Source: Streptomyces muensis
GTDB taxonomy: Bacteria > Actinomycetota > Actinomycetes > Streptomycetales > Streptomycetaceae
Length of the DNA: 64,000 bases
Assembly (NCBI RefSeq): GCF_021474425.1
Contig: NZ_JAKEIP010000018.1
Location: 1 to 64,000, forward strand
Reading direction: 5' to 3'
Under the pieces are notes generated by a model, which ran no database searches, was not told the DNA's origin, and saw only the letters and a program-made list of their open reading frames with translations. Shown here piece by piece: positions 21,610 through 63,049 of the stretch. Position 1 is the first letter of the stretch. Every line of letters begins with the position of its first letter. The position numbers were made by a program, and so were the translations under genes.

Positions 21610-21638
21610 TTGACCGTAGCGTTTGAGGTAGGTACGCT
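21610..21638 (+). promoter_or_regulatory. str operon (rpsL) promoter
   Basis: TTGACC (21610-21615) and TACGCT (21633-21638) with a 17-nt spacer, a good principal-sigma match. The predicted start is near 21645. Confidence 0.65.
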
Positions 21639-21756
21639 CAGACCTTGTGCCTGGGGTGTGCCCTGGCTCTCGTGCGTGCCTTCAACCGCATAGCGAGCTG
21701 TGAGCGGCCACCGTAATCTGTGCTCTTTTCGCCTCGCGGCGGGAGTCCGCCGGATT

Positions 21757-21781
21757 CGACACACCCGACCGCGTGGGTCGG
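21757..21781 (+). promoter_or_regulatory. Leader motif shared with the rpsJ leader (copy 1)
   Basis: A 25-nt sequence from CGACAC to GGGTCGG that recurs at 45277-45301 with 24/25 identity. It contains a 6-bp hairpin CCGACC/GGTCGG with loop GCGTG and lies 50 nt before the rpsL start. I do not recognise it as a named element. Confidence 0.75.
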
Positions 21782-21831: not shown

Positions 21832-22203
21832 GTGCCTACGATCCAGCAGCTGGTCCGCAAGGGCCGGCAGGACAAGGTCGAGAAGAACAAGACGCCCGCA
21901 CTCGAGGGTTCCCCTCAGCGTCGTGGCGTCTGCACGCGTGTGTTCACGACCACCCCGAAGAAGCCGAACTCGGCCCTGCGTAAGGTCGCGCGTGTGCGTC
22001 TGACCAGCGGGATCGAGGTCACCGCTTACATTCCGGGTGAGGGACACAACCTGCAGGAGCACTCCATCGTGCTCGTGCGCGGCGGCCGTGTGAAGGACCT
22101 GCCGGGTGTTCGCTACAAGATCATCCGTGGCTCCCTCGACACCCAGGGTGTCAAGAACCGCAAGCAGGCCCGTTCCCGCTACGGCGCCAAGAAGGAGAAG
22201 TAA
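21832..22203 (+). CDS. rpsL: 30S ribosomal protein S12
   Basis: A 123-residue decoding-centre protein and the classic streptomycin target. Lys43 (codon at 21958, in [12 protein letters not shown]) and Lys88 (codon at 22093, in [13 protein letters not shown]) are both wild type, predicting streptomycin-sensitive ribosomes. GTG at 21832 follows ggagaagta and gives exactly the usual length; the frame is open upstream but runs through the leader. First gene of the str operon; rpsG begins 2 nt after its stop. Confidence 0.98.
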
Positions 22204-43892: not shown

Positions 43893-44989
43893 GCGCTCGC
43901 CCCTGGGCACTGCTCGCCGAGCTCACCCACGCCTGTCCGCTGCACTGCGGCTACTGCTCCAATCCCCTCGAACTCACCAGCCGTACAAGTGAGTTGAGCA
44001 CCGAGCAGTGGGCCGAGGTGATGCGTCAGGCCGGCGAGCTCGGCGTCGTCCACACGCATCTGTCGGGCGGTGAGCCGTTGCTGCGCCGGGACCTTGAGGG
44101 GATCGTCGCCGCCGCCGACGCCGCCGGTATCTACACCCAGCTCGTCACCAGCGGCGTCGGCCTGGACCGGGCCCGGCTGGATGTCCTCGCCGGCGCCGGG
44201 CTGAAGAGCGTCCAGCTCTCCGTCCAGCACGCCGAGCCCCGCGCCAGCGATCGGATCGCCGGGCGCCGGTCCTTCGAAGAGAAGGGGCGGGCCGCCGCGG
44301 TCGTACGAGACGTCGGCCTGCCCCTCGGGCTCAATGTCGTCCTGCACCGCGACAACCTCGACGCCCTCGACGACATCGTCGAGCTCGGCCTGTCCTGGGG
44401 CGTCGAGCGCATCGAGCTGGCGAACGTGCAGTTCTACGGCTGGGGGCTGCTCAACCGCGCCGCGCTGATGCCGACGCGCGAGCAGCTCGCCGGGGCGCGG
44501 GAGGCCGTACGGCGGTGGCGGGAGAGGCTGCCCGCCGGGCCCGAGCTGGTCTGGGTCGTCCCCGATCACTTCGACGGCGTCGCCAAGCCCTGCATGGGCG
44601 GCTGGGGCTCGGTCTCGCTCACCGTCACCCCCGACGGCACCGTCCTGCCCTGCCCGGCGGCGGCCGCCCTGCCGGACCTGGACCCGCCGAACGTACGGGA
44701 TCATTCGCTGGGGTGGATCTGGGGGCGGTCCGAGGCGTTCCGTCGGTATCGCGGTACCGACTGGATGGCCGAACCCTGCCGCAGTTGCTCCCGGCGCGAC
44801 GAGGACTTCGGTGGCTGCCGCTGCCAGGCGTACGCCCTCACGGGGGACGCCACCCGTACCGATCCCGCCTGTCGGCTCTCCCCGGACCATGGCCTGATCA
44901 GAGCCCTGACCGAGGACAAAGGGGGCGAAAGGCCGAAAATCCGGCACCGGGTGCCCGGGCGAGCCAAGGGGGCGGCGGGCCGGGTTTGA
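43889..44989 (+). CDS. pqqE: Radical SAM PqqA cross-linking enzyme PqqE
   Basis: A 366-residue radical SAM/SPASM enzyme that forms the Glu-Tyr C-C bond in PqqA. The [4Fe-4S]-SAM motif C-x3-C-x2-C is at Cys16, Cys20 and Cys23 (CPLHCGYC). LSGGEPLLRRDLEGIV and LNVVLHRDNLDAL follow. The SPASM domain cysteines include GKPCMGGWG-like AKPCMGGWG, VLPCPAAAALP, and EPCRSCSRRDEDFGGCRCQA. GTG at 43889 overlaps pqqD. The C-terminal tail is Arg/Gly-rich. Its stop codon lies within the -35 element of the S10 operon promoter. No separate pqqF protease gene is present nearby. Confidence 0.94.
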   Translation: MSARPWALLAELTHACPLHCGYCSNPLELTSRTSELSTEQWAEVMRQAGELGVVHTHLSGGEPLLRRDLEGIVAAADAAGIYTQLVTSGVGLDRARLDVLAGAGLKSVQLSVQHAEPRASDRIAGRRSFEEKGRAAAVVRDVGLPLGLNVVLHRDNLDALDDIVELGLSWGVERIELANVQFYGWGLLNRAALMPTREQLAGAREAVRRWRERLPAGPELVWVVPDHFDGVAKPCMGGWGSVSLTVTPDGTVLPCPAAAALPDLDPPNVRDHSLGWIWGRSEAFRRYRGTDWMAEPCRSCSRRDEDFGGCRCQAYALTGDATRTDPACRLSPDHGLIRALTEDKGGERPKIRHRVPGRAKGAAGRV

Positions 44990-45013
44990 CCTACGTCACC
45001 CCGGGGGTATTCT
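44986..45013 (+). promoter_or_regulatory. S10 operon promoter, overlapping the pqqE stop
   Basis: TTGACC (44986-44991) and TATTCT (45008-45013) with a 16-nt spacer fit the principal sigma consensus well. The TGA of pqqE (44987-44989) is inside the -35 hexamer. A start near 45020 gives a leader of about 340 nt before rpsJ. Confidence 0.65.
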
Positions 45014-45359
45014 CTCCGGCTCGATTGGCGGACCCCCTGCCCCATATGGCAGACTGTCCGAGTTGCTCGGTCGAGTGTTGATGCTGCGCGCCTCCCGCCG
45101 GGAGGACCGGAAGCGAGTCCCACAGTACTCGTCGCCCTAACTGCCGTGAGGCAGCGCTGGGGCGGACGTACGGGAATCTTCCGGGAAGTGTGGTGCGGCA
45201 CTGGCCAGGCACCCGGTGAACCTCTTTCCCAAGGCAAGGGATGTTCGAACAAGGGACATCTGTGTCAGCGGAAGCGCGACACGCCCGACCGCGTGGGTCG
45301 GAGAAGTCGAAGGAACACCGGGTTCCAGAGCTGTAGAGAGACAGGACTACTGAGTAGCC
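44990..45359 (+). other. S10 operon upstream/leader region (370 nt)
   Basis: No gene was found. After the promoter the leader can form several small hairpins, for example CCTCCC/GGGAGG near 45093 and CTGCC/GGCAG near 45141. It then contains the 25-nt motif shared with the rpsL leader (45277-45301), 58 nt before rpsJ. A second weak promoter-like pair begins at TTGGCG (45025-45030). Leader length suggests mRNA-level control, possibly by L4 as in other bacteria. Confidence 0.55.
45277..45301 (+). promoter_or_regulatory. Leader motif shared with the rpsL leader (copy 2)
   Basis: Identical to 21757-21781 except for one A-to-G change at the seventh base. It keeps the CCGACC/GGTCGG hairpin with loop GCGTG, and lies in the leader of the S10 operon. 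Confidence 0.75.
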
Positions 45360-45668
45360 ATGGCGGGACAGAAGATCCGCATCCGGCTCAAGGCCTACGA
45401 CCACGAGGTCATCGACTCCTCGGCGAAGAAGATCGTCGAGACGGTGACCCGCACTGGTGCGTCGGTCGCGGGCCCGGTGCCGCTGCCCACTGAGAAGAAC
45501 GTGTACTGCGTCATCAAGTCGCCGCACAAGTACAAGGACTCGCGCGAGCACTTCGAGATGCGCACGCACAAGCGCCTGATCGACATCCTCGACCCGACGC
45601 CCAAGACCGTTGACTCTCTGATGCGACTCGACCTCCCGGCCGGTGTCGACATCGAGATCAAGCTCTGA
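45360..45668 (+). CDS. rpsJ: 30S ribosomal protein S10
   Basis: First gene of the S10 operon; a 102-residue head protein that also partners NusB in antitermination. It starts [19 protein letters not shown] and has the conserved [35 protein letters not shown] loop region split over residues 38-73. ATG at 45360. Weak upstream ribosome-binding sequence (agagacagga). rplC follows after 17 nt. Confidence 0.98.
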
Positions 45669-60641: not shown

Positions 60642-60837
60642 CGCACGATCGACCGATCCCTCTGCATCGATATCGCAGAGATTCGCGCGACGCGAGCTGA
60701 ATTTCGTTCATACGCAGGACCCAAGCCGATACGGCTTGACACCCCCGGTTCGGAGGCCGGGGACCCGATTCGTACCTGGTACGGCGGTCGGGAGTCGGTT
60801 CTGCGGAAGACCTCCGAAGATCACCAGGAGCCATTGA
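60642..60837 (+). other. rpmJ-rpsM leader with two hairpins
   Basis: A 196-nt gap containing CTCTGC/GCAGAG around 60656-60676 and CCCCGG/CCGGGG (60743-60748 with 60757-60762). A perfect TTGACA at 60736-60741 has no -10 at the right distance. The position matches where S4-type control of the alpha operon acts in other bacteria. Confidence 0.4.
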
Positions 60838-62951: not shown

Positions 62952-63049
62952 CCCTTCGGGGACGCCCCGGATCTCCGACAGGCGACCGCCTGCTCGGATA
63001 CTGACCCCGGTACCTGACACGGCCGGGGCAGACACACAGGAGAAACAAC

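Follow-up and report, generated by a model that had tools for sequence, protein, structure and literature searches.

Why should two separate ribosomal operons carry the same short sequence? The question is raised by a 64,000-nucleotide stretch of the Streptomyces muensis genome (contig NZ_JAKEIP010000018.1, positions 1 to 64,000 of the forward strand; hereafter the window), in which a 25-bp element occurs before rpsL, in the str operon, and again before rpsJ, in the S10 operon. The preliminary description of the sequence had proposed a cis element common to both operons, with a shared binding protein among the possible reasons, and had drawn it as a hairpin. Our analysis makes it probable that the two 25-mers are double-stranded DNA operators for WhiA, a protein of the helix-turn-helix (HTH)/LAGLIDADG type, which is predicted to repress both operons. 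A common binding protein is therefore the likely reason for the shared element, which behaves as a DNA sequence with a gap and fits the site of WhiA.

The two copies in the window

The features on which the argument depends are the following.

21757..21781, forward strand: 25-bp element before rpsL (str operon), likely WhiA operator
21758..21765, forward strand: GACACACC, fits the published WhiA core GAYACRCY (HTH half; core from PMC11701221)
21772..21781, forward strand: CGTGGGTCGG, conserved downstream half at rpsL, from column conservation; putative contact of the homing-endonuclease-like domain
21832..22203, forward strand: rpsL (ribosomal protein S12), GTG start at 21832; Pfam PF00164
45277..45301, forward strand: 25-bp element before rpsJ (S10 operon), likely WhiA operator
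45278..45285, forward strand: GACACGCC, fits the WhiA core GAYACRCY
45292..45301, forward strand: CGTGGGTCGG, conserved downstream half at rpsJ, from column conservation; putative role as at rpsL
45360..45668, forward strand: rpsJ (ribosomal protein S10), ATG start at 45360; Pfam PF00338

Each copy fits the consensus with R at its variable purine without a mismatch, and the two agree at 24 of 25 positions. The gaps to the genes, 50 nucleotides (nt) to rpsL and 58 nt to rpsJ, are those first described, and the flanks, which had been called dissimilar, do differ when read. None of 100 shuffles of the window matched the 25-mer, and the whole 9.9-Mb genome contains only these two at up to three mismatches, with no match for a reversed control. 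The word GAYACRCY by itself is not rare, occurring 11 times in the window when both strands are counted. The identities of rpsL, rpsJ, and rpsM follow from Pfam matches (S12, S10, and S13), and S12 or S10 from three named Streptomyces loci is 99–100% identical to the proteins of the window.

A look-alike before rpsM (60739–60762), mentioned earlier as a weaker relative, does not belong to the family. It reads GACACCCC, lacks the purine of the core, and contains neither GAYACRCY nor the bipartite core described below, and it was rejected as a third member on these grounds.

Distribution among genomes

In the counts for the genus, the class, and the genome itself, up to three mismatches to the 25-mer were allowed. 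Matches were found in 149 of the 150 genomes of the genus, most of them with exactly two sites, and the only genome without a match is 79% complete. At the level of the class the 25-mer was matched, in a leader or elsewhere in the genome, in 217 of 246 genomes, which represent 88 of 103 genera; a lack of conservation, which would have spoken against the element, was thus not what was found. A scan of named genomes returned at least 120 stretches with 121 occurrences. Titles were known for 80 of these, all actinobacterial. Among the matches listed, 119 of 121 lie before rpsL (49) or rpsJ (70), and the remaining two are too close to a sequence end to be assigned. The view of a cis element shared by two ribosomal operons therefore holds far beyond the genus, and the many unrelated occurrences that might have undermined it did not appear. 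An exact scan of viral contigs for the 25-mer gave no match. The shorter bipartite core is common genome-wide: in 10 genomes the reversed control often gave similar counts. What is informative is therefore only its placement in a leader, or the 25-bp form.

Leaders of the class were fetched by a search for RpsL, independently of the motif, from 55 of 104 RpsL-positive genomes (window included) spread over families. To these were added regions picked by motif position, namely L161 (both genes) and five rpsJ regions (L143–L145, L167, and L169). Of these leaders, 48 of 56 for rpsL and 29 of 53 for rpsJ contain the core ACRCCCG-N4-CGKG (47/55 and 23/47 when the motif-picked regions are excluded), and one of 109 has it on the opposite strand. 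Eight rpsL leaders lack the core; in seven of these cases the genome has it before rpsJ (L112, L128, L137, L154, L155, L162, and G227, the last represented by leader L146 and the motif-picked L145). The element lies 28 to 228 nt from the start codon, and its flanks show no evident relationship.

In family f4, which we take to be mycobacteria-like, the rpsL leaders (L113, L146, L166, and L168) retain the 5′ half, while the 3′ half (GGTCGG) has decayed; the rpsJ copies of this family (L143–L145, L167, and L169) keep more of the 3′ half.

A gapped sequence and the proposed hairpin

Column conservation was read from 49 rpsL and 29 rpsJ leaders with up to six mismatches. Across these 78 leaders the columns A3 C4 A5, C8 C9 C10 G11, C16 G17, and G19 are invariant, positions 7 and 18 are A/G and G/T, respectively, and positions 20–25, at the 3′ end, are the looser part. 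The CCGACC/GGTCGG stem of the preliminary description can form in both window copies, but it is not conserved across the family. Counts on 50 distinct variants of the 25-mer put it under the mean of the shuffles in each of five measures (for example, 77.0% against 77.6% of paired cells, and a covariation of 0.045 against 0.052). In register it pairs 77.0% of cells, compared with at most 62.3% when slid by 1–3 columns, though stems read off a single sequence tend to do so. A smaller CCCG/CGGG stem showed no informative change in the same variants. Because the stem lies below the shuffle mean on every measure while the columns above are fixed, the best description of the element is a linear sequence with a gap, asymmetric and sense-oriented, ACRCCCG-N4-CGKG, extended to 25 bp in the class. 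Covariation was sought across the 50 variants and none was found, and the hairpin part of the preliminary description, which hung on it, does not stand.

As with the RNA hairpin, of which two stems were counted and neither supported, a conserved upstream open reading frame was rejected; it was judged by eye only, the third codon position of the invariant CCC having no need to be fixed.

In Rfam, the window at gathering level gave only the L17 leader and a tRNA match, leaving the element unmatched, and a lower-level search, which covered the str leader only, found nothing at E values up to 10. The remark that this is not a named leader is thereby borne out for Rfam, with the qualification that a related rpsJ element has already been named elsewhere (Fisunov et al. 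2024; PMC11701221). The L17-Actino-Proteobacteria leader (62975–63031; 70.9 bits) is the sole ribosomal leader in the window at the gathering score.

Probable identity of the binding protein

The 5′ part of the element, CGACACRCC, includes GACACRCC, a match to the WhiA core GAYACRCY with its R included. For most of the whiA-bearing species that they analyzed, Fisunov et al. (2024; PMC11701221) report this core ahead of the rpsJ operon, and they list Actinobacteria with the groups in which this operon is conserved. In the same work, the HTH of Mycoplasma gallisepticum WhiA binds the core, and the homing-endonuclease domain binds a clade-specific downstream half from which it is freed by adenosine triphosphate (ATP). 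The genome of S. muensis encodes a full three-domain WhiA, so that the copy at 45277–45301 precedes rpsJ in a WhiA-bearing genome. Furthermore, chromatin immunoprecipitation (ChIP) of WhiA in Streptomyces venezuelae placed a peak at 75 bp from rpsJ, on its upstream side (Bush et al. 2013; PMC3781837). Among the named-scan matches listed, the 25-mer in 29 close relatives ends at a median of 63 nt (45–94) before rpsJ, which places this peak on or beside the 25-mer. From the sequence, we infer that WhiA also binds at rpsL. A study of WhiB notes about 15,000 copies of the word GACAC with few of them occupied (PMC4850268). There must then be further determinants, of which the longer site would be one.

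WhiA was found in 235 of the 246 genomes of the class and is so nearly universal there that a co-occurrence test within the class says little. Among the 11 class genomes in which the LAGLIDADG search gave no hit, six carry the element, and one of these six (G215) has an HTH hit. Outside the class, 115 rpsL leaders were sampled. In a first pass, based on the WhiA LAGLIDADG domain, the core was found before rpsL in 18 of 64 genomes with the protein and in one of 51 without it. The exception, G422, proved to have the WhiA HTH domain, and a search of the same sample for that domain added only this genome, giving 19/65 with WhiA against 0/50 without (p = 6e-6). As the core pattern had been defined on the first 40 non-class genomes, the other 75 form an independent set, in which the figures are 9/42 and 0/33 (p = 0.004). 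Counted by family, the core is present in nine of 26 WhiA-positive and none of 15 WhiA-negative families (p = 0.015). Of the two families with both WhiA states, f83 splits as predicted and f61 has the core in none of seven. The protein of G422 (G422:C2:193906-194157; leader L402) fits the WhiA HTH model well and was missed by the LAGLIDADG model; its rpsL leader keeps the core.

Position relative to predicted promoters

Promoters were sought with the pattern TTGAC-N15-19-TANNNT in 450 nt of each class leader. In the window, those of the two operons are predicted as follows.

21610..21638, forward strand: predicted sigma70-type str promoter, TTGACC-N17-TACGCT, 5′ of the element
44986..45013, forward strand: predicted S10 promoter, TTGACC-N16-TATTCT, 5′ of the element

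The predicted starts, near 21645 and 45020, thus lie about 111 nt (str) and 256 nt (S10) before the elements. A promoter-like pair was found 5′ of the element in 40 of the 78 motif leaders and 3′ of it in none. In the named set, read up to 350 nt upstream, 47/49 rpsL and 14/71 rpsJ rows have such a pair (the 71 rows being 70 sites, one counted twice), and none has it downstream among the matches listed. Because the pairs lie 5′ and never 3′ of it, the element is very likely inside the transcribed leader in the class.

Outside the class, the picture differs among the 19 core-bearing rpsL regions. In eight genomes of four families, the core ends 2–5 nt before the −35 box of a TTGACA-N17/18-TANNNT promoter, and so lies outside the transcript of that predicted promoter. 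In nine genomes (families f52, f56, and f83) the promoter is again 5′ of the core, and in two none was recognized. A function at the DNA level would cover both arrangements and an RNA function only one, which argues for DNA rather than RNA.

The abutting arrangement belongs to families f55, f62, f76, and f84 (L081, L087, L097, L103, and others), with a nearly fixed spacing of 2–5 nt between core and −35 box. In the class rpsL upstream regions and the named loci L201–L320, the str promoter looks strikingly conserved (TTTGACC, a 17–18 bp spacer, and TANNNT) in otherwise unrelated flanks.

Words resembling the Nus boxA lie between predicted promoters and elements: TGCTCTTT before rpsL (21721–21728) and CTCTTT before rpsJ (45222–45227). 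Several other rpsL leaders have such words on reading, and TGCTCTTTA stands 3′ of the promoter in G411 (L087). A putative boxA before rpsJ has been described in a few genera (PMC5725501). As an explanation of the element itself boxA was rejected, since the TGCTCTTT-type word is absent from the 25-mer.

Proposed mechanism and alternatives

According to the mechanism that we favor, the HTH would grip GACACRCC and the homing-endonuclease-like domain would grip CGKGGGTCGG. In the class, the bound WhiA may act as a roadblock to polymerase coming from the predicted starts, which in this genome are at a distance of about 110 bp in str and 255 bp in S10, and where the core abuts the −35 box the protein would sit over the promoter itself. 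At high ATP, the second half would be let go, as reported for the mycoplasma protein, so that S12, S7, EF-G, EF-Tu, and the S10 operon would be tied to the energy state of the cell.

Several observations weigh against this reading. Of the 65 non-class WhiA genomes, 46 have no core within 450 nt before rpsL (one family, 0/11), which indicates that WhiA is not sufficient. GAYACRCY alone separates the leaders weakly (7/64 WhiA-positive against 1/51 WhiA-negative; p = 0.075), and phylogeny enters the co-occurrence statistics only through the family count. Genome G249 has WhiA but carries the core before neither rpsL nor rpsJ, while G298 (98% complete) has the site and no WhiA hit by either domain. 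The conserved downstream half exists here, but its letters differ from the GTTGT of the published site, where this half is called clade-specific (PMC11701221). The main text of the S. venezuelae ChIP paper does not name rpsL, though relatives carry the 25-mer there, and neither GACAC nor GTGTC was found in the window in the roughly 300 bp ahead of infA or rpsH, two translation targets named in that paper (PMC3781837); ChIP peaks at highly expressed genes may therefore be partly unspecific.

The weakest step is the sign of control, where the evidence from the Streptomyces mutant is contrary: loss of whiA in S. venezuelae is reported to lower the expression of rpsJ and of other translation genes, a sign of activation rather than of repression (PMC3781837). 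The same sites could accordingly serve a WhiA, together with WhiB in Streptomyces, that raises transcription from within the leader during growth or sporulation. We regard this as unlikely, although it is the strongest of the alternatives. Sites 100–250 bp past a predicted promoter, or abutting a −35 box, would suit blocking better; the effect in the mutant may reflect growth phase; and for the rpsJ operon of Mycoplasma gallisepticum the measured sign is repression, which is cited for M. pneumoniae as well (PMC11701221).

Less likely still is that another actinobacterial DNA-binding protein reads the element, or that it encodes a pause or antitermination signal in DNA, WhiA co-occurring through shared ancestry. 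The presence of WhiA does track phylogeny, the 46 core-less WhiA genomes would be no surprise, and a boxA-like word is nearby in the str leader (21721–21728). However, no boxA lies inside the element, and the R-containing WhiA core, the rpsJ ChIP peak, the split of f83, and the recovery of G422 would all have to be coincidences. Least probable is a leader RNA whose CCGACC/GGTCGG hairpin is recognized by a ribosomal protein, or by some other factor that binds RNA, so as to regulate both operons in translation or in elongation: the element is sense-oriented, very likely transcribed in the class, and able to form the stem in both window copies, and across the variants the stem in register outdoes its slides, but the stem counts, the lack of an Rfam match, and the four families with the core 5′ of the −35 box all speak against it.

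Significance and comparison with known systems

The rpsJ site is essentially known, and the rpsL copy and the position in the leader appear new. No report of WhiA acting at rpsL was found in a literature search of titles and abstracts, and the main text of PMC11701221 has no mention of rpsL; its supplement, which could hold part of this, was outside that scope. Promoters of rpsL and rpsJ serve as expression parts in actinomycetes (Xylanimonas rpsL and Actinoplanes rpsJ; PMC6599336), and fragments that include the leader may carry the regulatory site.

If the reading is correct, a pair of nearly invariant operators at the main ribosomal operons would provide WhiA with a common role, coupling energy state to ribosome synthesis. 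The protein is present in Corynebacterium glutamicum, one of the named controls of the WhiA search, and this organism is not known to sporulate. We would tentatively go further, with rather more doubt than confidence, and suggest that control of ribosome synthesis was the ancestral job of WhiA in Actinomycetota, that a single bipartite operator of 25 bp was copied to the front of both the str and the S10 operon and allows this ATP-reading relative of homing endonucleases to serve as a roadblock in either leader, and that control of sporulation came later, in Streptomyces.

Like the attenuators described in rpsL leaders (Naville and Gautheret 2010; PMC2965389), the element is a candidate regulatory sequence before rpsL, but it lacks a T-run and a conserved stem. 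GACAC, the S. venezuelae WhiA sequence, is its first half, and a ChIP peak precedes rpsJ there; that consensus, however, has 5 bp, is used in either orientation, and is linked to most of about 240 units, whereas the 25-mer is long, one-directional, and present in two places here (PMC3781837). In the families f55, f62, f76, and f84, the core abutting the −35 box resembles the arrangement with a −35-like auxiliary motif described for Firmicutes and Mollicutes. The closest relative is the rpsJ operator of Fisunov et al. (2024; PMC11701221). In M. gallisepticum that site is in the promoter, with the −35-like auxiliary GTTGT, while the element described here has CGKGGGTCGG as its second half and occurs in two operons, each time in the leader; shared by both are the core and the rpsJ operon and, apparently, the bipartite form with a clade-specific half downstream.
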